Origin: Arthrobacter sp. SO3
GTDB taxonomy: Bacteria; Actinomycetota; Actinomycetes; Actinomycetales; Micrococcaceae
Direction of reading: 5' to 3'
Length of the DNA stretch: 46,059 nt
NCBI RefSeq assembly: GCF_020532825.1
Contig: NZ_MQTS01000066.1
Span: 1 to 46,059 of the forward strand
How positions within the stretch are numbered: the first letter of the stretch is position 1; every line of letters begins with the position of its first letter. This document shows, one piece after another, positions 958 to 43,534 of the stretch. The notes below the pieces were generated by a model. It saw only the letters and a program-made list of their open reading frames with translations. It searched no databases and was not told the origin of the DNA. The position numbers were made by a program, and so were the translations under genes.

Positions 958-3174
958 ATGACCCAGACTCCTGTGCAGCCGTCCCCGCAGCCCCCGGTTG
1001 CCAAGAAAATCCCCGCCGTCCGCACGCACCACGGCGACGCCTTCGAGGACAACTACGAGTGGCTGCGGAACAAGGAATCAGCGGAGGTGGTGGACCTGCT
1101 CAAGGCCGAGAACGCCTACCAGGAGGCCGTGACGGCCCACCAGGAGCCGCTGCGCGAGGCCATCTTCCAGGAGATTAAGGCCCGCACCCAGGAGACAGAT
1201 CTCTCCGTGCCCAACCGCAAGGACGGCTGGTGGTACTACACCCGCTCGGTGGAAGGCAAGGAATACGGCATCCAGTGCCGCGTCCGGCCCCAGGACACCG
1301 GGGACCGCGTCGCCGACTGGACGCCCCCCGCCGTCGAGGTCGGAGTCGAGGTTCCGGGCGAGGAAATCCTGCTGGACTGCAACGTCGAGGCTGAGGGCAA
1401 GCCGTTCTTCGCCGTCGGCGGCGCCGCCGTGACCATCGACGGGAACCTCTACGCCTACGCCGTGGACAACGCCGGCGACGAGCGCTTCAACATGCGGATC
1501 AAGGACCTGCGCACCGGGGAACTCCTGCCCGACGTGATCGAGAACGTCTTCTACGGCATCTCCTTCTCCCCCGACGGCACCCGGATCTTCTATACCGTGG
1601 TGGACGACGCCTGGCGGCCCTACCAGGTCAAGGCCCACGTGCTCGGCACGCCCGTCGAGGCGGACGAGGTCATCTACCAGGAGGACGACGTCGCCATGTG
1701 GCTGGGCTTCGAGCTCTCCGCAGACCGGCGCCACCTGGTGCTGGGCATCGGCTGCTCGGAATTCAGCGAGACCCGGCTGCTGCGCTTCGACGCGCTCGAC
1801 GCCGGACTCAGCACCGTGATCTCCCGGGACGAACGCATCCTCTACGAGGCGGAGCCGTTCCTGCTGGCCGACGCCTCCGGGACGCAGGACGAGGCGATCG
1901 TCCTGACCCACAACAAGGACGCCATCAATTCCATGGTCTCCCTGGTGGACCCGGCCGAGCTCGCCAAGCCGCTCGCCGAGCAGCACTGGACCACCGTCGT
2001 CGAGCACTCCGGCGAGGTGCGGGTCAACGGCGCCGGCGTCACCTCGACGCACCTGGTGGTCTCCATCCGCAAGGACACGATCGAGCGCGTGCAGGTCCTG
2101 CCGCTGGCCGGGCTGGGCACGCCGGAGCAGGGCGCACCGGTGGAGCCCGCCTTCGAGGAGGAGCTCTACACCGCAGGGGTGGCCGGCTCCGACTACGAGG
2201 CCCCCGTGATCCGGATGGGCTACACATCCTACTTCACGCCGTCCCGGGTCTACGACTTTGTGCTGCCCACCGCGGAGCAGCCCGCCGGCGAGCTGCTGCT
2301 GCGCAAGGAAAGCCCGGTGCTCGGCGGCTACTCCGCCACTGACTATGTCGCCACCCGCGAGTGGGCGGTGGCCTCCGACGGGACCCGCATCCCGCTCTCC
2401 GTGCTGCGGCACGCCTCCGTCAAGCAGGATTCGACGGCGGCCGGACTGGTGTACGGCTACGGCTCCTACGAGATGAGCATGGATCCGAGCTTCGGGATCC
2501 CCCGGCTGTCCCTGCTGGACCGGGGCATCGTGTTCGTGATCGCGCACATCCGCGGCGGCGGGGAACTGGGCCGGCACTGGTACGACACCGGCAAGAAGCT
2601 GCAGAAGAAGAACACCTTCACGGACTTCATCGCGGCCACCGACTGGCTGGCGGAGTCCGGCTGGGTGGATCCTTCCCGGATTGCGGCGATGGGCGGCTCG
2701 GCCGGCGGCCTGCTGATGGGCGCCGTGGCGAACCTGGCCCCGGAGAAGTACGCGGCGATCGTGGCGGCCGTGCCGTTCGTGGACGCCCTGACCACCATCC
2801 TGGATCCCAACCTGCCGCTCTCCGCGCTGGAGTGGGAGGAATGGGGCAACCCGATCACCGACCGCGACGTGTACGAGTACATGAAGTCCTACACGCCGTA
2901 CGAGAACGTCCGCGCGGTGGCGTACCCCAAGATCGCCGCTGTCACCTCGTTCAACGACACCCGGGTGCTCTACGTGGAGCCCGCCAAGTGGGTGCAGCGG
3001 CTGCGCGAACTGAACACCGGCAGCGAGCCGATCGTGATGAAGATCGAAATGGAGGGCGGCCACGGCGGCGCCTCGGGCCGCTACGTGCAGTGGAAGGAAC
3101 GGGCCTGGGACTACGCGTTCGTCGCCGACTCCATGGGCGCGACCGAGCTGCTGCCGGGGGCCGGGGTTAAGTAG
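958..3174 (+). CDS. ptrB: Oligopeptidase B / prolyl oligopeptidase family serine protease (S9A)
   Basis: 738 aa, the normal length for oligopeptidase B. The N-terminal two thirds should form the beta-propeller lid; the C-terminal third is the alpha/beta hydrolase domain. The catalytic triad is visible: Ser581 in GGSAGG, Asp667 in SFNDTRV and His702 in GGHGGASGRY. The segment RGGGELGRHWYDTGK is typical of the family. It is a cytosolic enzyme that trims short peptides after basic residues. It starts at the ATG that follows a -10 box by 6 nt, so it is probably translated from a leaderless mRNA. A prolyl endopeptidase specificity is the main alternative, but the family assignment is secure. Confidence 0.93.
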   Translation: MTQTPVQPSPQPPVAKKIPAVRTHHGDAFEDNYEWLRNKESAEVVDLLKAENAYQEAVTAHQEPLREAIFQEIKARTQETDLSVPNRKDGWWYYTRSVEGKEYGIQCRVRPQDTGDRVADWTPPAVEVGVEVPGEEILLDCNVEAEGKPFFAVGGAAVTIDGNLYAYAVDNAGDERFNMRIKDLRTGELLPDVIENVFYGISFSPDGTRIFYTVVDDAWRPYQVKAHVLGTPVEADEVIYQEDDVAMWLGFELSADRRHLVLGIGCSEFSETRLLRFDALDAGLSTVISRDERILYEAEPFLLADASGTQDEAIVLTHNKDAINSMVSLVDPAELAKPLAEQHWTTVVEHSGEVRVNGAGVTSTHLVVSIRKDTIERVQVLPLAGLGTPEQGAPVEPAFEEELYTAGVAGSDYEAPVIRMGYTSYFTPSRVYDFVLPTAEQPAGELLLRKESPVLGGYSATDYVATREWAVASDGTRIPLSVLRHASVKQDSTAAGLVYGYGSYEMSMDPSFGIPRLSLLDRGIVFVIAHIRGGGELGRHWYDTGKKLQKKNTFTDFIAATDWLAESGWVDPSRIAAMGGSAGGLLMGAVANLAPEKYAAIVAAVPFVDALTTILDPNLPLSALEWEEWGNPITDRDVYEYMKSYTPYENVRAVAYPKIAAVTSFNDTRVLYVEPAKWVQRLRELNTGSEPIVMKIEMEGGHGGASGRYVQWKERAWDYAFVADSMGATELLPGAGVK

Positions 3175-7617: not shown

Positions 7618-7959
7618 GTGGAACCGTTCACCGATTCAAACACTCCTCCGCTGTCTATCGCGCAGGTCGATTGGGCTCTCGACGGAGAATACGAGCAGGC
7701 GCCGCCCGGGTCCAACAAGGCTGCCGCTGACCTGCTGGCCTTACACGAGACGCTGCTAGCGGCAGTGATCACCCGCGTCGGCGAGGTCGAGGCGGCTGAA
7801 TGGGCCCTTGACCAGGCAAAAGCCGCGTGCGGCGCTCAGGTTGCTGCTGCCCTGGCCGCCGGGGTGCCGGCCGAAGAGATCGCAGCAGCGGCAGGGGAAC
7901 AGGGGTCGGCGGGGACCGACGTCGTCGATGACAGGGAACCCGAGCCCGCCGACGACTGA
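7618..7959 (+). CDS. Small helical acidic protein, unknown
   Basis: 113 aa from a GTG start with GGAAGG 8 nt upstream (7604-7609); the frame is open further upstream but codon quality falls away there. The body from residue 15 is an amphipathic helix-rich segment (WALDGEYEQAPPG, then ETLLAAVITRVGEVEAAEWA) followed by an Ala-rich part and a disordered acidic tail ending EPADD. No transmembrane segment, cysteine cluster or known motif apart from one Cys. It may be a small coiled-coil protein. Not recognised. Confidence 0.55.
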   Translation: MEPFTDSNTPPLSIAQVDWALDGEYEQAPPGSNKAAADLLALHETLLAAVITRVGEVEAAEWALDQAKAACGAQVAAALAAGVPAEEIAAAAGEQGSAGTDVVDDREPEPADD

Positions 7960-8073
7960 CTGGCCCTTTCGCCCTCTGGGCCCAACTCAGCCCGGGACTC
8001 CTAGAGCAAGACGCGTGCTTCGAGGGTCGGTGCCTGACTCAGGCGATCGGGGTCCCGCCTGCTCCTGATCGTT

Positions 8074-9039
8074 TTAGCCTTGGCTGTGCTTCAGCCGCGG
8101 GAAGAGCGACTCCGCATTGCCGCGGTCGATCGCCGCGCGCAGGGAGGGTTCCATCGGGTAGTTCTCGTATTGCGTGTTCAGGAGCCCGATCGCCATCGAC
8201 GGTGCGAACGGGAAGTCAGTGCCGTATGTGATGCGGCGAGGGTCAGCGACCTCGAGCAAGGTTGGCAGCGTCGTCGGGCTTGCGGACAGGGCGAGGTCGT
8301 AGTAAAACCGCCGCAGGATGGATTGCTTCGCATCGGTCAGCGCGGCCAGCGCGCTGAGGGCCAGGTCCCTGTTATTAAGCATCGTGAGCAGGATCCTGAA
8401 GGCGATGTACGGCGCGAAGCCGCCCGCGTGGGCCAGGAGGAACTTGATTCCCGAGTACTTCTCCACCGCTCCGGACAGGATCAAGCTGATAGCGGCGCGG
8501 GTGGTATCGAGCAGGAAGTCCGCGGCGAAGGTGGGGATCCCCGGCACCGCCGGAGCGGGAAGTTCGCCAGGGTGAATGAACACGACGGCCCGGCGGCGGT
8601 GCAGGAACTCCAGCAGCGGCTCGAAGTCCGGGTCGCCAAGGTAGCGTCCGTCATGGTTGGCCAGCAGCACGATGCCGTCGGCATGCAGGCTGTCCAAGGC
8701 GTACTCGGCCTCGGTTAGGGCCCCTTCCACGTCCGGCAAGGTAAGTGTCGCGAAGAACCCGAATCGATCCGGCCGGCCGGCCACCACCTCTGCGGTGTAC
8801 TCATTGACCTCCCGCGCCCGTCGCCGCCCTTCGAGGGCGTCCCCGAGGTAGACGCCGGGAGTGGACAGGGACAGGATCCCCGTCTGCACGTCGCTCCCGT
8901 CCATGAACTTCAACGCCGAGCGCTCCGACCACGACGGCAGGCCCAAGCCACCGGGGCGGATGCCCTTCTGGTGCATCCAACGCGCATACCCCGGCGGAAC
9001 GATGTGCTGGTGAGTATCTATGCGGTGCGGCCGGCTCAT
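8074..9039 (-). CDS. Amidohydrolase family 2 (ACMSD-like) metal-dependent hydrolase or decarboxylase
   Basis: 321 aa, a single TIM-barrel domain of the amidohydrolase_2 family. Metal ligands can be placed at His10 and His12 (DTHQHI), His156 (VFIHPGE), His204 (LLAHAGG) and Asp275 (YGTDFPFAP). Members of this family decarboxylate aromatic or semialdehyde acids (ACMSD, gamma-resorcylate decarboxylase) or hydrolyse lactones and amides. The HPGE and HAGGFAPY segments fit the decarboxylase-like branch, but the substrate is not determinable. It stands alone, with flanking genes on the opposite strand, so context gives no pathway. Confidence 0.85.
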   Translation of the reverse strand: MSRPHRIDTHQHIVPPGYARWMHQKGIRPGGLGLPSWSERSALKFMDGSDVQTGILSLSTPGVYLGDALEGRRRAREVNEYTAEVVAGRPDRFGFFATLTLPDVEGALTEAEYALDSLHADGIVLLANHDGRYLGDPDFEPLLEFLHRRRAVVFIHPGELPAPAVPGIPTFAADFLLDTTRAAISLILSGAVEKYSGIKFLLAHAGGFAPYIAFRILLTMLNNRDLALSALAALTDAKQSILRRFYYDLALSASPTTLPTLLEVADPRRITYGTDFPFAPSMAIGLLNTQYENYPMEPSLRAAIDRGNAESLFPRLKHSQG

Positions 9040-13348: not shown

Positions 13349-15403
13349 ATGTCCAATCTCAGAGTCGCAGTCGACGTCGGAGGCACATTCACTGACGTCT
13401 GCATTTTCGATGAAGATTCACAAAGCATGCGGGTCACCAAGGTCCCGTCGACACCGGCTGACCCCATGTTGGCGATACTGAGCGGGGTGGAACGTGCCGA
13501 GATCAATCTGGCGGACGTGTCACTGTTCTCACACGGAACCACCGTAGCAACGAACGCCCTGATCACCCGGAACTTTCCCGCCGCAGCCATGGTCACTACA
13601 AAGGGGTTCAGGGATGTCATCGAGATCCGGGACGGTACGAAAGACGACCTTTGGGACGCCTACAACGACGTAACAGGTCCCTACATCCGCCGCCGTGACA
13701 GGTTCGAGGTGACCGAGCGGATCGACTACGCCGGCAACATCGTCGCTCCCCTGGACGAAGACGAGGCCCGCCGTCTGGCCGCGGTACTCCGTAAGCGCGG
13801 CGTCACAACCATCGCCGTCTGCTTCATAAACTCCTACGCCAACGCCGAGCACGAAATCCGGATGCGGAAAATCCTGGAGGAGGAACTTCCGGAAGCCACC
13901 GTCTCCACCTCTGCCGAGATCCTGCCCGAAATCTTCGAGCACGACCGCTTCAACACCGCCGTCGCCAACGCCGTGCTGGGACCCCTGGTATCCGGCTACG
14001 TCAGCCGCCTCGCCGATGAGCTCGAATCCGGCGGTTACGACGGCGACCTGCTGCTCCTGCACTCCGGCGGCGGTTCCATGACCCCGCGAATGGTCAAGCG
14101 CTACCCGGTGCGCCTCGCAGCGTCGGGCATCGCAGCCGGCGCCATCGCGGCGAAGCACATCGCCCAGCAGTGTGGCTTCGAGAACGCCGTGAGCCTGGAC
14201 ATGGGCGGCACGTCTACCGATATTGCCCTGGTCTCCGACGGTGAGCTCCGTATTACCAAAGAATGGCAGGTTGAATACGGCCACCCCATCGTCTTCCCGA
14301 GCATCGAGGTTCTCACCATCGGTGCCGGCGGCGGCTCGATTGCCCACATTGACATTGCCGGTTCGCTTCGAAATGGCCCGCAGTCCGCGGGTGCCGACCC
14401 GGGGCCCGCCTGCTACAACATGGGCGGCGACGACCCGACCAACTGCGACGCCAACGTGGTCCTTAACAGGCTCGGATCCACCTTGGCCGGCGGCGCAAAG
14501 ACGCTGGACCGCGGACTCTCGCAGGCCGTGATCAAGCGTGCCATCGCTGAACCGCTGCACATGAGTGAAGCGGAGGCCGCCCACGCCATCCTCCAAGTCG
14601 CAAACGCCAACATGGCGGACGCCGTCCGCCTGATCTCCATCCGCCGTGGCTATGATCCCCGCGACTTTGCGTTGATCGCCTTCGGTGGCGCTGGCGCCCT
14701 GCACGGCGCGGAGGTGGCCAGGGAACTGAACATTCCCACCGTCGTCGTACCGCCCAACCCCGGCGTCACGTCAGCACTGGGCTGCCTGCTGGTGGACATC
14801 AGGCACGACCTGTCCGCCATGTACTCGGCCGTTGCCGCAGACGCCGACGCGGAAAACCTGGAGAGCAAATACAAGGCCCTGGAAACGGAGGCCACTGCCC
14901 GGCTCCGCCACGAAGGCGTTTCCGAGGAGAATTCGATCCTGCAGCGGATCATCTCCATGCGCTATCAGGGGCAGTGGCGCTCGCTGGCCGTGAATATGGG
15001 AACCGGCGACGGTGCTCTGGAGGAAGCCATCCAGAGCTTCCACCAGCAGCACGAGCGCGAATTCGCGTTCCGCCAGGATGATCAGCCCGTGGAAATCTAC
15101 CAGCTGCAGCTGTCCGCCGTCGGTAAGACGCCCAAACCCTCCTTCGCTCCGTCGACGGAACGGGTCTCCGGGCCTGGCGAGCCCGATTCGGTTCGGCCGG
15201 TGTACTTCGGCAAGGACGGCTGGGTCGAAACGCCCGTCTACGACCGCACCAAGCTCGGCGCCGGCGCGAGGTTCGAGGGTCCCGCGATCATCGACCAGCT
15301 TGACTCCACGACGGTCCTGCCCCCGCGGACCACCGCTGAGATCGACGAGTGGCTAAACATCCGGATCCACCTCACAGAGTTCCAAGACGAGCAGGAAGCC
15401 TAA
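13349..15403 (+). CDS. hyuA: Hydantoinase/oxoprolinase family protein, HyuA subunit
   Basis: 684 aa, typical for the ATP-dependent hydantoinase A subunit. The actin-like ATPase signatures are present: AVDVGGTFTDVCIF at residues 7-20, SHGTTVATNAL near 62, LDMGGTSTDIALV near 285 and AGADPGPACY near 347. The start is preceded by GGAGGAA. With HyuB it would open a cyclic amide (hydantoin, N-methylhydantoin, 5-oxoproline or a lactam) using ATP. Two nucleotides separate it from hyuB, so both subunits are made together. Acetophenone or acetone carboxylase beta-type subunits are relatives, but no third carboxylase subunit is present, which favours a ring-opening amidase. Confidence 0.9.
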   Translation: MSNLRVAVDVGGTFTDVCIFDEDSQSMRVTKVPSTPADPMLAILSGVERAEINLADVSLFSHGTTVATNALITRNFPAAAMVTTKGFRDVIEIRDGTKDDLWDAYNDVTGPYIRRRDRFEVTERIDYAGNIVAPLDEDEARRLAAVLRKRGVTTIAVCFINSYANAEHEIRMRKILEEELPEATVSTSAEILPEIFEHDRFNTAVANAVLGPLVSGYVSRLADELESGGYDGDLLLLHSGGGSMTPRMVKRYPVRLAASGIAAGAIAAKHIAQQCGFENAVSLDMGGTSTDIALVSDGELRITKEWQVEYGHPIVFPSIEVLTIGAGGGSIAHIDIAGSLRNGPQSAGADPGPACYNMGGDDPTNCDANVVLNRLGSTLAGGAKTLDRGLSQAVIKRAIAEPLHMSEAEAAHAILQVANANMADAVRLISIRRGYDPRDFALIAFGGAGALHGAEVARELNIPTVVVPPNPGVTSALGCLLVDIRHDLSAMYSAVAADADAENLESKYKALETEATARLRHEGVSEENSILQRIISMRYQGQWRSLAVNMGTGDGALEEAIQSFHQQHEREFAFRQDDQPVEIYQLQLSAVGKTPKPSFAPSTERVSGPGEPDSVRPVYFGKDGWVETPVYDRTKLGAGARFEGPAIIDQLDSTTVLPPRTTAEIDEWLNIRIHLTEFQDEQEA

Positions 15404-15405
15404 TC

Positions 15406-17412
15406 ATGACCGACGTGATCACCATGCCAGATCTCCATGTCGCCCATACCGACGCACGGCAGGCATCAGGCCTTGACCCCGTAACGTTCGAGGTGCTGAA
15501 GAATGCCTTCGTCACCAGCGTCGACCTGATGAGCGAACAGATTCTCCGGACTTGCTACTCGTTCGTCATCTATTCCCGTGACTTCTCCTCCGCACTCTGT
15601 GACGCCAACGGAAACACGGTCATGCAGGGCAGCGGTGACATTGCCGTCCACGTGGGTACCTTGCACTTCCAGTGCAAGGCGGTCATAGAAGAATTCGGAA
15701 AAGACATTCACCCCGGCGACGTCTTCGCCATCAACGACCCCTACCGGGGCGGCACGCACTTCAACGACGTCAGCTTCATCCGGCCGATCTTCTCCGCCGG
15801 TGAGGTGATTGCCTTCGCCCAGAACAAGGGCCACTGGGCTGACATCGGAGGGAACGTCCCGGGTTCATTCGATGTCAACGCCAAGGAGCATTTCGGCGAA
15901 GGCCTGCGGATCACTCCCGTGCGGATCTGGAGCAAGGGTGTATTCCTTCACGACGTCGCCCAACTCCTGGTCTCCAACACTCGGGCACCTCGCCAGGCGA
16001 TGGGAGACCTCCACGCACAGTCAGAAGCGACCGCCGTGTGCGAGCGTGAAATCCACCGTCTTGTGGCCAAGTATTCAAAAGCAACGGTTGTCTCGGCGAT
16101 GCAGGAAACACAGGACTACGTCGAAAGAATCGTGAGACGCCGGCTTGAGCACCTGCCACAGGGAGAGTGGGAAACGACCGACTACATCGACTTCGATCCC
16201 GGCAAGGGTGAGGGTCTGGTGCCCATCAAGATCAAGCTGACCTTGGATGGCAAGGGAATCCACTACGACCTGACCGGTTCCGCACCCGCCGTGGAAACCT
16301 TCCTTAACTCCGGTTACGGCACCACCCACTCGGCCATCTACGCCGGCACCAAGACGTTCTTCCCGGACGTTCCGCTGAACTCCGGCTTTTACGCCGCCGT
16401 CGAAGCGGAAATCGGGCCGGAAGGCACCGTCGTCAATGCCGGATGGCCCTACGCGGTCACCGGGTTCTGCTCCGGTCCCTACGAAAAGCTGATGAACGGG
16501 ATCTTCGAGCTGTGGTCCCAGATCATGCCCGAGCGGGCCATGGCATGTGCGTTCAACCTCGAGTACCTCCTGGTGGGTGGCCGTGACGGCCGCACCGACA
16601 ATAACCCGTACTTCATGTGGTACGACTGGATGGCTGGTGGCTGGGGTGGCCGGGCCTCCAAGGACGGTGCCAGCGCCACTGCCCCTGTCTTCGGCCCCGG
16701 CCTGGCGGTCCAGCCCATCGAAGGCCAGGAGCGGCTCTCCCCCGTCCTGACCACCGTGCACCAGATCGCCACCGATTCCGGCGGCCCCGGCAGGTTCCGC
16801 GGCGGCCTCGGCATCGAAAAGGGCGGCACCCTGGTCGACGCGACGAAGACCGTGATGAGCTACTGCTGCGACCGAGCACGCTCGATCACGTGGGGCATCG
16901 AAGGCGGCCTGCCGTCCATCCCACACGGTGTCTGGATGAACAAGGGCACCGATCAGGAAAAGTTCCTCGGTTCCAACTTCTCAGCGGTTCCGTTGCAGTC
17001 CGGGGACTCGTTCACACGCCCGTCCGCTGGTGGCGGCGGATACGGCGATCCCCTGGAACGCCCCTTCGACGAAGTCCTCGAAGATGTCATCGACGAGTAC
17101 GTGTCGATCGAACGGGCGGCGAAGGACTACGGCATCATCATCCGCGAAATCGACCGCGAACTGGACCAGTTCGAGATCGACTCCGCCGCCAGCACCGTTC
17201 TGCGCCAGCAGATCCGCGCCGACCGACCCGGGTGGCTGACCGCCGATCCGGTCGTCGTGGCGGCGAAGTACCGCTCCGGAGAAGTGAGCATGCTCGACGT
17301 GATCCGCCGCCACGGCGTGATCCTGGACTGGGGCACCGGGGAACTGTTCCCGGAGACCACCTCAGAGTTCCGCAAGAGCATGGAGAAGCGCTCCTCGTCC
17401 CATTGGCACTAA
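15406..17412 (+). CDS. hyuB: Hydantoinase B subunit (HyuB)
   Basis: 668 aa from the ATG at 15406, 2 nt after the hyuA stop, with AGGAAG inside the end of hyuA serving as ribosome site; the frame extends upstream into hyuA but that is not needed. Family markers are SGDIAVHVGTLHF, GDVFAINDPYRGGTHFNDV near residues 105-123, NSGYGTTHSAIY, and the Gly-rich GGGGYGDPLERP near residue 545. HyuB forms the catalytic pair with HyuA for ATP-driven ring opening. The operon continues with an NCS1 permease after a 14-bp hairpin, suggesting uptake of a ring-amide or nucleobase-like substrate. Confidence 0.9.
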   Translation: MTDVITMPDLHVAHTDARQASGLDPVTFEVLKNAFVTSVDLMSEQILRTCYSFVIYSRDFSSALCDANGNTVMQGSGDIAVHVGTLHFQCKAVIEEFGKDIHPGDVFAINDPYRGGTHFNDVSFIRPIFSAGEVIAFAQNKGHWADIGGNVPGSFDVNAKEHFGEGLRITPVRIWSKGVFLHDVAQLLVSNTRAPRQAMGDLHAQSEATAVCEREIHRLVAKYSKATVVSAMQETQDYVERIVRRRLEHLPQGEWETTDYIDFDPGKGEGLVPIKIKLTLDGKGIHYDLTGSAPAVETFLNSGYGTTHSAIYAGTKTFFPDVPLNSGFYAAVEAEIGPEGTVVNAGWPYAVTGFCSGPYEKLMNGIFELWSQIMPERAMACAFNLEYLLVGGRDGRTDNNPYFMWYDWMAGGWGGRASKDGASATAPVFGPGLAVQPIEGQERLSPVLTTVHQIATDSGGPGRFRGGLGIEKGGTLVDATKTVMSYCCDRARSITWGIEGGLPSIPHGVWMNKGTDQEKFLGSNFSAVPLQSGDSFTRPSAGGGGYGDPLERPFDEVLEDVIDEYVSIERAAKDYGIIIREIDRELDQFEIDSAASTVLRQQIRADRPGWLTADPVVVAAKYRSGEVSMLDVIRRHGVILDWGTGELFPETTSEFRKSMEKRSSSHWH

Positions 17413-39321: not shown

Positions 39322-39658
39322 GCGCTGCGGTTCCGGGCGGGCGACGCGGATCCGGCCCGGAGACGCGGATCCGGCCTGGCGACGCGCAAAATACCGAGCG
39401 CGCCGGAATGACCGCAGCGCGGAGCCGTATTCCGCGTCGCAGGACATTTACCGCAGCGGAATTACTCGCCCAATCGGGCGCGGAATGGATGTGGCGGAGA
39501 TTTGGGGGGCGGCGCGGGCCGGGGCTCCGGGCGGGTAATCCCGGGAGTCGCCTACCGGATAAATGCTAACCATGCTTACTATTGACTCGCATTAGGCACA
39601 TCGGTCTGGAAACTGCTCACTGGGGGCAGCAGAAGCCGTGCCGGAACTGGAGTTTTTC
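39322..39658. other. Gene-free region with 19-nt-period repeats
   Basis: GACGCGGATCCGGCC occurs at 39343 and 39362, and its first six bases again at 39381, all exactly 19 nt apart. From about 39545 the sequence becomes more AT-rich, with a TACTAT box at 39577-39582. This is probably the promoter region of the next gene; no convincing -35 was found. Open frames here look non-coding. Confidence 0.5.
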
Positions 39659-40312
39659 GTGAGCATTGAACAGGAAATGACCCCGCTGAGTGACGCCGAA
39701 CTGATGGCGGAGGCGGGCACCGCGCTGCCGGCCAAGGAAGTGGCCTCCGTCCTGGACCTCAACGCGGACCTGGACCTCGGCCTCAACGCGGCGGCACCGA
39801 TTGACCTCGCCGTCGCGGCCAACGCCAACGTTGCCGCCCCGATCGACGCAGCAGCCTCGGCCAACATCCTGTCCTTCGGTTCGGACGCCCAGGCGCTCTC
39901 CGACCAGGGCGTCATCATCAACCAGGGCATCGACGCCGATGCCAACGCCGACTCCACCCAGGACAGCACGCTCCAGCAGGACTCGGGCAGCACCGACGGC
40001 TCCGACACCGGCACCACCGCCGTCACGGCCGAGGAAAACGCCCTGCCGACCGACGTCCCCGGCGCCCTCAACTCCAACCTGCTGAACGTGAACGTGAACC
40101 TGGACGCCGCCGCCGACATCGCGGCCCCGATCAACGGTGCCGTGGCCGCCAACGCCAACGTCGCCGCCCCGATCGACGCCGCCGTCGCCGCCAACATCGG
40201 CTCAATCGACAGCAACGCCTTCGCCGTCTCGCAGCAGGACGCCATCATCAACCAAAACATTGCGGGCGAAGCCACGGCTACCGCCGACCAGCAGTCCGAC
40301 CTCCGGCAGTAG
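39659..40312 (+). CDS. Acidic Ala/Asn/Asp-rich protein with a 110-residue internal duplication
   Basis: 217 aa from the GTG at 39659 (GGAG 6 nt upstream). Only one Lys, one Arg and two Phe; no Cys, His, Trp or Tyr. The N-terminal 35 residues look like a leader helix (LSDAELMAEAGTALPAKEVA). Residues 33-100 and 143-210 are copies of each other, offset by exactly 110: AANANVAAPIDA at 53 and 163, and IINQ at 86 and 196. A Ser/Thr/Asp linker joins them. No classical signal peptide. It stands 8 nt before a PqqD-M50 membrane protease gene and is likely its substrate or partner. It could also be a structural surface protein. Confidence 0.75.
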   Translation: MSIEQEMTPLSDAELMAEAGTALPAKEVASVLDLNADLDLGLNAAAPIDLAVAANANVAAPIDAAASANILSFGSDAQALSDQGVIINQGIDADANADSTQDSTLQQDSGSTDGSDTGTTAVTAEENALPTDVPGALNSNLLNVNVNLDAAADIAAPINGAVAANANVAAPIDAAVAANIGSIDSNAFAVSQQDAIINQNIAGEATATADQQSDLRQ

Positions 40313-40320
40313 TTCCCCGG

Positions 40321-42786
40321 ATGAGCACACCGCACGGCGGGCCGTCCCTCGCGGACGGCCCGCCGGCCTCCTCTGCGCCGGACTCTTCTGCACCGGTTTC
40401 CTCCCCGCCGACTGTGTCTGCACCTGTTGCCGCCGCCGGCACCCTGCCGGTTCCGGTCCGGGCCGACGGCGTCCAGCTCCTCGGCGAGACCCAGGGCTCC
40501 GGCTACCGCGAGGCGCCCTCGCTGGTCCGCCGCGCCGACGGCCAGACCCTGCAGCTCACCCGGCTGCTGTACATAATCCTCGAGGCGGTCGACGGCACCC
40601 GAGGCGCCGAGGAAATCGCCAGCCACGCCAGCGCCGGATTCGGCAGGCTGGTCAGCGCCGACAATGTCCGGACACTCATCGACTCCCAGCTGCTGCCCCT
40701 GGGACTGCTGCAGCTGGCCGACGGCTCCCAGCCCGAGGTCCGCAAGGCCGACCCGCTGCTCGGGATGAAGTTCCGCTACACCGTCACCGACCCGGAGAGC
40801 ACCCGCCGGATCACCGCCCCCTTCGCCGCGCTCTTCAACCCGCTGGTCGTGATCCTCGTGACCGCGGCCTTCCTCGCCGCCTGCTGGTGGGTGTTCATGG
40901 TGAAGGGCCTGGCGTCCGCCACGCATGAGGCTTTCGCCAACCCCGGCCTGGTGCTGCTGATCCTGGCCGTGACCGTGCTTTCCGCCGGGTTCCACGAGTT
41001 CGGGCACGCTGCCGGCGCACGCCGCGGCGGGGCCACCCCGGGGGCGATGGGCACCGGCCTGTACCTGATCTGGCCCGCGTTCTTCACCGACGTCACCGAT
41101 TCCTACCGGCTGGGCCGGGCCGGCCGCATCCGGACCGACCTCGGCGGCCTCTACTTCAACGCGATCGTCGCCGTCGCCATCATGGGCCTCTGGTGGGCCA
41201 CCGGCTTCGACGCGCTGCTGCTCGTCGTCGTAACCCAGGTGCTGCAGATGGTCCGGCAGCTCATGCCGCTGGTCCGCTTCGACGGCTACCACATCCTCGC
41301 CGACGCGACTGGGGTTCCGGACCTGTTCCAGCGGATCAAACCCACCCTGCTGAGCCTCCTGCCGTGGCGCCGGAAGCAACCGGAGGCGCAGGTCCTCAAG
41401 CCGTGGGCCCGCGCCGTGGTTACGGCCTGGGTCCTCATCACCGTTCCACTGCTGCTCTTCAGCATGGTCATGATGGTCCTGTCGCTGCCGCGGGTGCTCG
41501 GCACCGCGTGGGACAGCGGGCAGAAGCAGTACGCCATGTTCAACCACAGCCTCGCCGGCGGGGACCCCGTCGATGCCGCCGTGCGGATCCTGGCGATCGC
41601 CGCCGTCGCGCTTCCCGTCCTGGGGATCTTCTACATCCTGTTCCGGCTGGGCCGGCAACTGGTCACCGGGCTGTGGCGGAAGACCCGCGGCCGCGCACTC
41701 CAGCGCGGGACCGCTCTTGCCGCGATCGCCGCCGTGGTGGCCGGACTCGCCTGGGCGTGGTGGCCCGGCGCCGAGAGCTACCGGCCCGTCCAGCCCTACG
41801 AGCGCGGCACCCTGGCCGACGCCACCACCGCGATTTTCCCGGCCGGTTCCGCCGCCGGCATGCGGGAGGGCCGCGCCGGCCGGACCGTGGCGCTCTGGCC
41901 CGCGGGCAAGGACAAGCCCACCCGGGAGGACCCGCAGCTGAGCATGGTCCTGGTGCCGCGTGATGCCGGCGCTTCCGGAACGCCGGCGGCGCCGTCGTGG
42001 GTGTTCCCCTTCGACCAGCCGGCCGCGCCCGGGGAGGACGGCAACCAGTCGCTCGCCGTCAACACCACGGACGGATCCGTCGTCTACGACGTCGCCTTCG
42101 CGCTGGTCTGGGCCGACGACGGCGCGGACGTCACCACCCGCAACGAGGCCTACGCGTTCGCCAGCTGCGCGGACTGCGCCGCCGTCGCGGTGGGCTTCCA
42201 GGTGGTGCTGATCGTGGGCCAGACCGACGTGATCGTCCCGGAGAACCTCTCGGCCGCCGCGAACTACAACTGCGTGCGGTGCCTGACCTACGCCCTGGCC
42301 AGCCAGCTGGTCCTCACCCTGGACGGGCCGCTGAGCGCCGACGGCATGACCCGGCTCAACGAGCTCTGGCAGCAGATCGCGGAGTACGGCCGGAACCTGC
42401 AAAACGTGCCGCTCTCGGAGATTCAGGGGCGCCTGGACGCCTTCAAGGTCCAGATCATGGAGGTCATCAAGAGTGACCCCAGCGCCACGCCGGGTGTCGC
42501 GTCCGGCACGGCTCCTGCCACATCGGGGAGTTCGCCGGGGGCCAGCACGAGTGCGAGCCCGGGCGCGAGCCCTTCGGCCACGCCGGGGGCTCCGGGCGCC
42601 ACACCGGGGGCGACTGCGGGCGCTCCCGGGACCGCGCCGGCGCCCGGCGGGACCGCCCCCGCCGCCACTTCCACGGCTACTGCGCCCGCGGGAGCCCAGC
42701 CCACGGAATCCGGAGGAACGGCCACCTCACCGGCTCCCGGACCGACGTCGGCCGCTTCGACGGCCACGGCGCCGCCTGCACCGTAG
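40321..42786 (+). CDS. Polytopic PqqD-like/M50 zinc metalloprotease with cell-wall-type tail
   Basis: 821 aa. Residues 1-45 are disordered. Residues 60-135 resemble a PqqD-type peptide-binding winged helix (REAPSLVRRADGQTLQLTRL). The M50 protease core spans about 165-450 with helices near 172-194 and 208-224. The zinc motif HEFGH is at 225-229, and the third ligand Asp321 is in the LVRFDGYHIL segment. A last membrane helix near 462-482 leads to an outer domain (485-720) with two CxxC pairs (616-619 and 651-654). The final 100 residues are Pro/Ala/Thr/Gly-rich, as in wall-spanning tails. M50 proteases cleave within the membrane. YydH-like relatives mature RiPP peptides, so processing or export of the upstream protein is the working idea. 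Confidence 0.8.
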   Translation: MSTPHGGPSLADGPPASSAPDSSAPVSSPPTVSAPVAAAGTLPVPVRADGVQLLGETQGSGYREAPSLVRRADGQTLQLTRLLYIILEAVDGTRGAEEIASHASAGFGRLVSADNVRTLIDSQLLPLGLLQLADGSQPEVRKADPLLGMKFRYTVTDPESTRRITAPFAALFNPLVVILVTAAFLAACWWVFMVKGLASATHEAFANPGLVLLILAVTVLSAGFHEFGHAAGARRGGATPGAMGTGLYLIWPAFFTDVTDSYRLGRAGRIRTDLGGLYFNAIVAVAIMGLWWATGFDALLLVVVTQVLQMVRQLMPLVRFDGYHILADATGVPDLFQRIKPTLLSLLPWRRKQPEAQVLKPWARAVVTAWVLITVPLLLFSMVMMVLSLPRVLGTAWDSGQKQYAMFNHSLAGGDPVDAAVRILAIAAVALPVLGIFYILFRLGRQLVTGLWRKTRGRALQRGTALAAIAAVVAGLAWAWWPGAESYRPVQPYERGTLADATTAIFPAGSAAGMREGRAGRTVALWPAGKDKPTREDPQLSMVLVPRDAGASGTPAAPSWVFPFDQPAAPGEDGNQSLAVNTTDGSVVYDVAFALVWADDGADVTTRNEAYAFASCADCAAVAVGFQVVLIVGQTDVIVPENLSAAANYNCVRCLTYALASQLVLTLDGPLSADGMTRLNELWQQIAEYGRNLQNVPLSEIQGRLDAFKVQIMEVIKSDPSATPGVASGTAPATSGSSPGASTSASPGASPSATPGAPGATPGATAGAPGTAPAPGGTAPAATSTATAPAGAQPTESGGTATSPAPGPTSAASTATAPPAP

Positions 42787-43004: not shown

Positions 43005-43010
43005 TTGGTC

Positions 43011-43277
43011 ATGAGCGAGATGTCTGTCACTGACGCGCGAAGCCGGCTCTCCGAGGCAGTCGATACTGCCCGGGTGAACCATGAACCTGTGTATCTCCTG
43101 CGTCGCGGACGTCGAGTCGCAGCATTGATCGACGCCGAGGATCTTGCCAAACTAATCGAGGCGGCCGAAGATCTGGATGATCTCCGGGCGGCCAACGCAG
43201 CGCGGACCGAAATGATCGACACCGGCGAAGGCCCTGTCCCCTGGGATGAAGTCAAGGCGGAACTGGGCCTCGTGTGA
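43011..43277 (+). CDS. Type II antitoxin, Phd/YefM family
   Basis: 88 aa. The N-terminal half is the DNA-binding Phd/YefM fold (SVTDARSRLSEAVDTARVN, then EPVYLLRRGRRVAALIDAED) and the C-terminal half is the toxin-binding helix and tail. It binds and neutralises the RelE toxin encoded next and should repress the shared promoter. It overlaps the toxin start by 4 nt (GTGA). The ATG at 43011 is favoured over a TTG six bases earlier. Confidence 0.9.
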   Translation: MSEMSVTDARSRLSEAVDTARVNHEPVYLLRRGRRVAALIDAEDLAKLIEAAEDLDDLRAANAARTEMIDTGEGPVPWDEVKAELGLV

Positions 43278-43534
43278 GTCATGCCGTACAGGTTGCGCCG
43301 GCCGCCGTCCGACAGCTGCGCAAGCTCCCTCCCGACGGCCGCCGACGCATCCAGGCCGCAATCGAACTCCTCGCCGAAACACCGCGGCCACCCGGCGCCA
43401 AGAAGCTCTCCGGCAGCAGCGGCGACTGGCGCGTCCGCACCGGCGACTACCGGATCATCTACGAGATCCGCGACGCACAGCTCATCGTCCTGGTCGTCGC
43501 CATGGGCCACCGTCGGGAGATCTACCAGCGCTAG
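43274..43534 (+). CDS. relE: RelE/ParE-type toxin
   Basis: 86 aa starting at a GTG inside the antitoxin stop. The RelE fold is clear: VQVAPAAVRQLRKLPPDGRR, then GDWRVRTGDYRIIYEIRDAQ and the ending VVAMGHRREIYQR. In RelE toxins the basic and aromatic residues in these segments cut mRNA on the ribosome. Complete and probably active. Confidence 0.92.
   Translation: MSHAVQVAPAAVRQLRKLPPDGRRRIQAAIELLAETPRPPGAKKLSGSSGDWRVRTGDYRIIYEIRDAQLIVLVVAMGHRREIYQR

Follow-up and report, generated by a model that had tools for sequence, protein, structure and literature searches.

Two adjacent genes on the forward strand of contig NZ_MQTS01000066.1 of Arthrobacter sp. SO3 probably form a leader-guided system for maturation and release. 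The first gene encodes an acidic protein of 217 amino acids (aa) with two cores in tandem, and the second a membrane protein joining a recognition element (RRE) of ribosomally synthesized and post-translationally modified peptides (RiPPs), a site-2 protease and a CxxC domain. In the proposed system, the RRE would bind the acidic precursor, the protease would cut it and the product would be released outward to the CxxC domain. The stretch analyzed, hereafter the window, covers positions 1-46,059 of the contig, which also provide the numbering. RRE-fused site-2 proteases are already known from daptides; new are the lack of adjacent tailoring enzymes, the tandem-core precursor and the fused partner domain. 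No paper on this cassette was found among the literature matches listed, which cover titles and the starts of abstracts, with subscription journals mostly outside their scope.

Conserved pairing of precursors and proteases

Of 59 genomes surveyed, 37 of them from the same genus, 24 have the acidic protein, and precisely these 24 also have a close homolog of the protease (E below 1e-200). The collection of 59 loci spans Arthrobacter, Pseudarthrobacter, Nocardioides and Actinokineospora, plus one Micrococcaceae metagenome-assembled genome. An acidic open reading frame (ORF) lies directly upstream of the protease in 58 of these loci, 56 found by script and two (L058 and L080) by inspection, while L102 starts at a contig edge. 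At the level of the class, 394 genomes were searched with the protease of locus L114 as query. Matches at E <= 1e-8 were found in 76 genomes and matches below 1e-50, our threshold for the strong family, in 58. Forty strong places were taken with their flanks, and precursor-like ORFs precede the protease in all 37 that have upstream sequence. Eleven of these loci carry a tandem-type precursor of 210-494 aa. The other 26 carry one to three shorter precursors, mostly of 60-124 aa and at most 171 aa, with a leader containing E..LP-x-[RK]. Because these 26 loci have short precursors instead, the protease pairs with a precursor family rather than with the 217-aa protein as such. The preliminary description, which was made from the sequence alone, had counted proteases that regularly lack the acidic gene against its reading; such proteases do occur regularly as far as the 217-aa type is concerned, in the 26 class loci with short precursors, whereas the set of 24 genomes shows tight pairing.

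Taking all 99 compared loci together, 95 have at least 700 nucleotides (nt) upstream of the protease and the other four lie at contig edges. An ORF with the leader motif [ED]..LP-x-[RK] is present upstream in all 95, compared to 84 of 524 other genes from the same loci. A six-frame search of the genomes with the short-precursor profile, which is blind to position, recovered 31 of 394 genomes, 30 of them within the 58 that bear the protease. In the extra genome, G139, all matches lie less than 900 nt from a contig start. Among plasmids there are three matches, two of which lie in Streptomyces records that label the gene product a hypothetical protein. The label Streptomyces-like for loci of family f37 was inferred from these plasmid matches and from the rodlin genes described below. 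In L057, the protease frame ends early at 7884-8195 despite a full-length match, which could reflect a frameshift, decay or a sequencing error (CP116670.1).

The tandem-core precursor and its relatives

The acidic protein is free of Cys and has a single Lys and a single Arg compared to 31 Asp/Glu residues, resulting in a net charge of -29, and it ends in Arg-Gln. Residues 21-107 recur as residues 131-217 at an offset of exactly 110, with 45 of 87 positions identical. The ungapped BLOSUM62 score of this repeat is 194, while the best of 500 shuffles reached 82. Composition and repeat score hence bear out the preliminary description of a 217-aa acidic protein with no Cys, almost no positive charge and an internal copy offset by 110. 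The predicted layout is a single leader followed by two cores, which the short-precursor profile matches separately (core 1 at 39821-39928, E 1.1e-4; core 2 at 40151-40258, E 9.7e-6). The core ends show an alternating pattern of small residues, Asn and Gln, closing with Q-x-x-I-x-Q, and low-confidence beta hairpins are modeled at residues 77-106 and 187-216. NCBIfam returned no match at E <= 1, Pfam no curlin match at E <= 1, and no convincing family match was obtained. The mechanical ORF of the gene opens at 39638, and matches to homologs start at residues 7-13 of this ORF in 14 of 24 matching genomes and at residues 1-5 in the other 10, including the genome itself. The GTG at 39659 is the likelier start, because of these 14 matches and a GGAG 6 nt upstream. 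In some Nocardioides (L099, L108, L109 and L110), VVDSAGNVIGTLD-like repeats in a long array make up the linker between the cores.

Profile comparisons with hhalign, which leave out Cys-bearing and f36 precursors, connect the acidic protein to the shorter precursors. The acidic protein aligns with the short LPDRE precursors (98.6%, E 8e-16), which align with the LPxRET pairs (97.0%, E 1e-10) and more weakly with the Streptomyces-like type (92.8%, E 4e-7). The LPxRET pairs and the Streptomyces-like type align at 98.7% (E 2e-16). On profile similarity, the acidic protein is predicted to be the long, tandem-core form within a family of precursors that otherwise mostly have 60-124 aa. Precursor types set by hand require eight changes on a tree of 58 proteases, which is the minimum, compared to a mean of 30.2 after shuffling. 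The tandem type forms a single clade (100/100) whose neighbor, with modest support (85/74), is the short LPDRE type. Considering this placement and the precursor homology, the tandem precursor may have arisen from a short one by duplication.

The cores are under purifying selection. Compared to the window, Arthrobacter-like loci show ratios of nonsynonymous to synonymous differences (pN/pS; 48 and 47 pairs) of 0.23 and 0.26 for the two cores, 0.83 for the linker and 0.26 for the RRE and protease. Towards Nocardioides and Actinokineospora (8 pairs), identity is 70% in the cores, 59% in the RRE and protease and 24% in the linker. The product has been kept and not diversified.

An RRE fused to a site-2 protease

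The acidic gene stops at 40312 and the protease begins with an ATG at 40321, leaving a gap of 8 nt that the preliminary description had placed correctly before the 821-aa protein. It was also right about the HEFGH and RFDG segments as an M50 active site, since alignments with relatives show H225, E226, H229 and D321 unchanged throughout (39 of 39 and 9 of 9). An AlphaFold model built with 39 sequences has a mean predicted local distance difference test score (pLDDT) of 63.7. Strands are modeled at residues 52-56, 67-70 and 76-79, followed by helices at 81-89, 96-107 and 113-124, and this block has pLDDT values of about 70-92. Long helices resembling a site-2 protease follow. Aligned with VIA-align, residues 41-133 match an RRE with leader peptide (5v1u, Z 8.6), the lasso B1 protein with leader (6jx3, Z 8.5) and PqqD (5sxy, Z 7.3). 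Residues 150-322 match the Methanocaldococcus jannaschii site-2 protease (3b4r, Z 7.2, 115 residues, root-mean-square deviation 3.7). The protease 3b4r is of the family expected, but a Z below 8, as for 5sxy and 3b4r, can reflect merely a common arrangement. Foldseek by itself found no match to the model at E <= 0.001, and a sequence search of solved structures yielded unconvincing matches only. Residues 52-124 are nevertheless predicted to adopt an RRE/PqqD-like fold, because the order of elements, the position before the protease and the match to the daptide model agree; the Z values alone would be insufficient. The PqqD-like domain that had been proposed at residues 60-135, before the membrane helices, is accordingly modeled as three strands and three helices.

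By profile score, daptide MpaP is the closest protease model with a name, ahead of YydH, which the preliminary description had cited as an example. The daptide protease model NF041824 matches residues 64-393 (E 6.7e-31) with 107.8 bits compared to a cut-off of 300, and the YydH/LiaK model NF058609 scores 32.5 bits compared to a cut-off of 225. Pfam returned nothing for the full 821-aa protein at E <= 1, and PF02163, searched with residues 1-420, stayed below its gathering score (8.9 bits, cut-off 27.2, E 1.1). The M50 assignment is thus based on the NCBIfam similarity, the motif and the fold.

A CxxC module as third component

The CxxC domain of the window is homologous to separate proteins encoded directly downstream of the protease in relatives. 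Several of these separate proteins start with a signal-peptide-like stretch and some end in the same Pro/Thr-rich tail, and the tail goes with the CxxC module. Across the class set, the domain occurs in 38 of 394 genomes, all of them within the 58 that bear the protease (hypergeometric P 1e-38). Judged by open-frame length, 21 copies are in the protease frame and 17 are separate. Most strands of the domain have a pLDDT < 60 in the full protease model. The domain is probably extracytoplasmic, because the last membrane helix follows a loop with seven Lys/Arg. Neither the separate CxxC domain nor the tested precursors had a Pfam or NCBIfam match better than E 0.01. The Pro/Ala/Thr-rich tail had previously been described as wall-type. 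The composition is as described, but the wall-type assignment drew on composition alone, and neither an LPXTG motif nor a C-terminal membrane helix is visible in residues 723-821. The motif, helix and basic tail that mark the C terminus of a sortase-anchored wall protein are thus not seen.

A protease subfamily (L111-L114 and L151-L153) with short precursors carries a P-loop-like stretch in place of the CxxC domain. In L112, this stretch has weak ParA/MinD-like matches (NCBIfam E 6e-4, Pfam E 0.014). In L111-L114, which lack the last membrane helix, the stretch should be cytoplasmic. BTAD-type regulators are found near these loci (Pfam BTAD scored for L112). Standalone copies of the last helix with the CxxC domain occur in L115 (6909-7616) and L116 (6761-7615). 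Cys-bearing precursors (...ACQ...TC.PA...) were seen in L174, L181 and L182; of the three genomes concerned, G405 and G207 have no detected CxxC gene, and in G440 the CxxC gene lies at another locus.

Table 1. Features of the cassette in window coordinates.
Feature	Position	Strand	Basis
Shine-Dalgarno-like GGAG, 6 nt before GTG 39659	39649..39652	+	sequence
Acidic tandem-core precursor, 217 aa, GTG start	39659..40312	+	homolog starts, alignment, composition
Predicted leader region, residues 1-44, motif E..ALP-x-KEV.S.LDL	39659..39790	+	35-sequence alignment, profile similarity to short precursors
Core copy 1, residues 45-107	39791..39979	+	alignment, internal repeat, selection
Variable linker, residues 108-137	39980..40069	+	pN/pS 0.83; length differs widely among relatives
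Core copy 2, residues 138-217	40070..40309	+	alignment, internal repeat, selection
RRE - site-2 protease - CxxC-domain fusion protein, 821 aa	40321..42786	+	ORF, NCBIfam, model
Predicted RRE/PqqD-like domain, residues 45-134, three strands and three helices	40453..40722	+	AlphaFold model, VIA-align
Predicted M50/site-2 protease core, residues 158-345	40792..41355	+	NCBIfam, AlphaFold model, VIA-align 3b4r
HEFGH motif, residues 225-229	40993..41007	+	sequence, alignment
RFDG, D321 likely third zinc ligand	41275..41286	+	sequence, alignment
Last membrane helix, residues 459-480	41695..41760	+	after loop with 7 Lys/Arg; missing from aligned P-loop-fused relatives
CxxC (616/619) ... CxxC (651/654) domain, residues 556-720	41986..42480	+	homology; probably extracytoplasmic
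Pro/Ala/Thr-rich tail, residues 723-821	42487..42783	+	composition; pLDDT under 50

Gene neighborhood

The protease, the precursors and the CxxC gene recur at the class-set loci, and any other neighbor cluster reaches at most 7 loci. These results cover the 25 largest similarity clusters among 1,302 genes, called crudely by script from 7 kb upstream to 9 kb downstream of the protease match. Other frequent neighbor clusters reflect Arthrobacter synteny. Pfam and NCBIfam family scans of neighbors cover 16 window proteins, among which no radical SAM enzyme, ABC transporter, dehydratase or YcaO was found; the lack of modification genes reported in the preliminary description therefore stands for this set. 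The scanned neighbors include a flavin monooxygenase, a lipase-like hydrolase, an aldehyde dehydrogenase, a Phd/ParE pair and a haem-oxygenase-like protein. The pair consists of a Phd/YefM-type antitoxin and a ParE/RelE-type toxin just downstream of the cassette (43005-43534). Individual relatives have a nearby ABC-type gene (e.g., L166 and L189, by eye), which is not common to the loci.

In 34 of 55 loci, an oligopeptidase-B-like gene lies no more than 8 kb ahead of the protease. Copies 93-94% identical to that of the window lie about 1 kb before the protease match in L089, L053 and L091. The window copy is at 958-3174, some 36 kb away. Because of this distance, the region appears either to have been rearranged or to have received a large block of mostly catabolic genes (3200-39400). 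Two genes at 13349-17412 resemble caprolactamase subunits, with scores under the model cut-offs. In L157, two rodlin genes lie 2-3 kb upstream of the precursors, one of them scoring 181 bits for NF041022. A link to rodlins was dropped after tblastn at E <= 1e-5 found no rodlin in the other 39 loci of the set.

Relationship to known systems

Daptides provide the closest comparison. Their protease MpaP likewise carries an RRE N-terminal to an intramembrane site-2 protease (PMC10036551, excerpts) and is the best NCBIfam match of the window protease, yet the match is under the cut-off. Short precursors with an acidic leader motif are common to both, with ELExMEAP in daptides (Ren et al. 2023, PMC10036551, excerpts) and E..LP-x-[RK]E here. 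Unlike daptide precursors, the window precursor lacks the daptide motif and the C-terminal Thr. The scanned window neighbors include the aldehyde dehydrogenase but no aminotransferase, methyltransferase or iron alcohol dehydrogenase, and the CxxC domain and the tandem-core precursor are additional to the daptide set. Protease score, precursor and window neighbors led us to reject membership in the daptide systems. One weak relative in the same genus belongs to a true daptide locus (L118, 4878-9135), with a protease scoring 373.9 bits for NF041824 and a precursor above the NF041808 cut-off. The L118 protease forms a very long branch on the protease tree.

In epipeptide systems, the M50 protease YydH/EpeP/LiaK is likewise thought to cut and export a ribosomal peptide (NF058609; PMC10885120, excerpts). 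The window differs by the lack of a radical SAM protein among the 16 scanned proteins, and by the RRE and CxxC domain of its protease. Membership in the YydH-type epipeptides was rejected based on the low score for NF058609 and the lack of a radical SAM gene in the window. The pearlin proteases TglG and TmoG are similar in being membrane-bound M50 enzymes acting on ribosomal scaffold peptides, but they are reported to free one amino acid from the C terminus of a scaffold that is used again (PMC10885120, excerpts), and nothing here hints at such a product. Curli-type repeat proteins may be similar in the pattern of small residues, Asn and Gln at the core ends and in the low-confidence hairpins. 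A role in phage defense was discarded, with no PADLOC match at E <= 0.1 for either the acidic gene or the protease of the window; the L154 protease has one weak PADLOC match (PD-T4-6, E 0.008).

Proposed mechanism and alternatives

Binding, cut and export are modeled on daptide MpaP and EpeP (PMC10036551 and PMC10885120, excerpts). On the cytoplasmic side, the RRE would take the leader of the acidic precursor via the E..ALP-x-KEV motif and hand the precursor to the site-2 protease core, which, at the membrane, would cut behind the leader. What remains, two untailored cores, would then be let go outward. The CxxC domain, kept outside by the last membrane helix, would receive or assemble the two-core product. 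Here we infer the leader binding, the cleavage and its place, the topology, the export and the job of the product. Fold, active site and tight pairing agree in outline with the interpretation given in the preliminary description, a membrane protease that binds the leader of the acidic protein and cleaves or exports it, though that account missed the precursor family and the CxxC domain as a third module.

Several observations weigh against the proposed maturation and release system. The acidic protein compared directly to the Streptomyces-like precursors gives no significant match (4.5%), and its predicted model is poor (mean pLDDT 51.7). The hydrophobicity of the cores is mild, with a best 19-residue mean of 1.25 in the window protein, and three Streptomyces-like precursors are not hydrophobic (best 19-residue means -0.13 to 0.29). 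Core segments that are mildly hydrophobic at most give no clear sign of a classic transmembrane substrate. The leader-motif pattern was formulated after examples had been seen, and 16% of the control genes fit it. In 28 of the 58 genomes with the protease, the short-precursor profile finds no match, and the precursors there, where seen, are of other types; they are therefore linked to the family through motif, position and intermediates. The CxxC domain was undetected in 20 of the 58 genomes. Eighteen of these belong to family f36, of which seven were fetched and carry LPER/LPDR-type precursors, and the remaining two (G207 and G405) carry Cys-bearing precursors. Finally, the first VIA-align row, for a methyltransferase (8hkr, Z 8.7), covers the RRE stretch, as do entries for PKMT2 and GdmN.

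The product itself could be a structural surface protein, which we speculate to be a better fit than a bacteriocin because of the constraint on the cores, their Asn/Gln/Ala pattern and the low-confidence beta hairpins. An untailored bacteriocin or signaling peptide resembling EpeX/EpeP, with freed cores acting on other cells, is unlikely overall. Small precursors, the RRE, the site-2 protease and one to three precursor copies per locus would suit such a peptide, and EpeP is sufficient for EpeX production (PMC10885120, excerpts). Yet the cores are about as conserved as the protease or more so, which does not suggest an arms race. In addition, the tandem type is large and acidic, and no further neighbor family is widely common. 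Tailoring enzymes encoded elsewhere in the genome might also modify the precursor before the protease acts, which would make the cassette part of an ordinary RiPP pathway with a scattered cluster. RRE domains are indeed typical of RiPP pathways (PMC7470986 and PMC12710340, excerpts). We regard a scattered cluster as quite improbable; only three parts are widely common among the 25 largest neighbor clusters of the class-set loci, a comparison in which genome-wide partners were not searched for. Site-2 proteases often perform regulated intramembrane proteolysis, which counts for an envelope stress signal with the protease degrading or trimming the acidic protein, but this is highly improbable given an acidic protein without a convincing family match or clear membrane segment, and regulated-proteolysis systems are not known to include an RRE domain and multiple precursor copies.

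The maturation and release system proposed here might extend further. It is conceivable, though doubtful, that the cassette represents an undescribed and widespread actinobacterial secretion route, in which the RRE-protease would take untailored precursors by the leader and let them out, and the CxxC protein outside the membrane would nucleate or anchor their beta-rich Asn/Gln/Ala cores into a surface layer or fiber. Under such a secretion route, the window might, with similar reservation, hold the fused tandem-core version, while the other form would consist of separate subunits of 60-80 aa and a secreted partner.

RRE domains serve as markers of peptide-modification pathways. The large family described here (58 of 394 genomes) joins an RRE to a protease without a consistently adjacent tailoring enzyme, and its substrates reach about 500 residues. 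If the proposed mechanism is true, leader recognition by RREs would also serve plain protein maturation and export, beyond peptide chemistry. Three unnamed families, the precursors, the protease and the CxxC partner, would gain a common and testable role.

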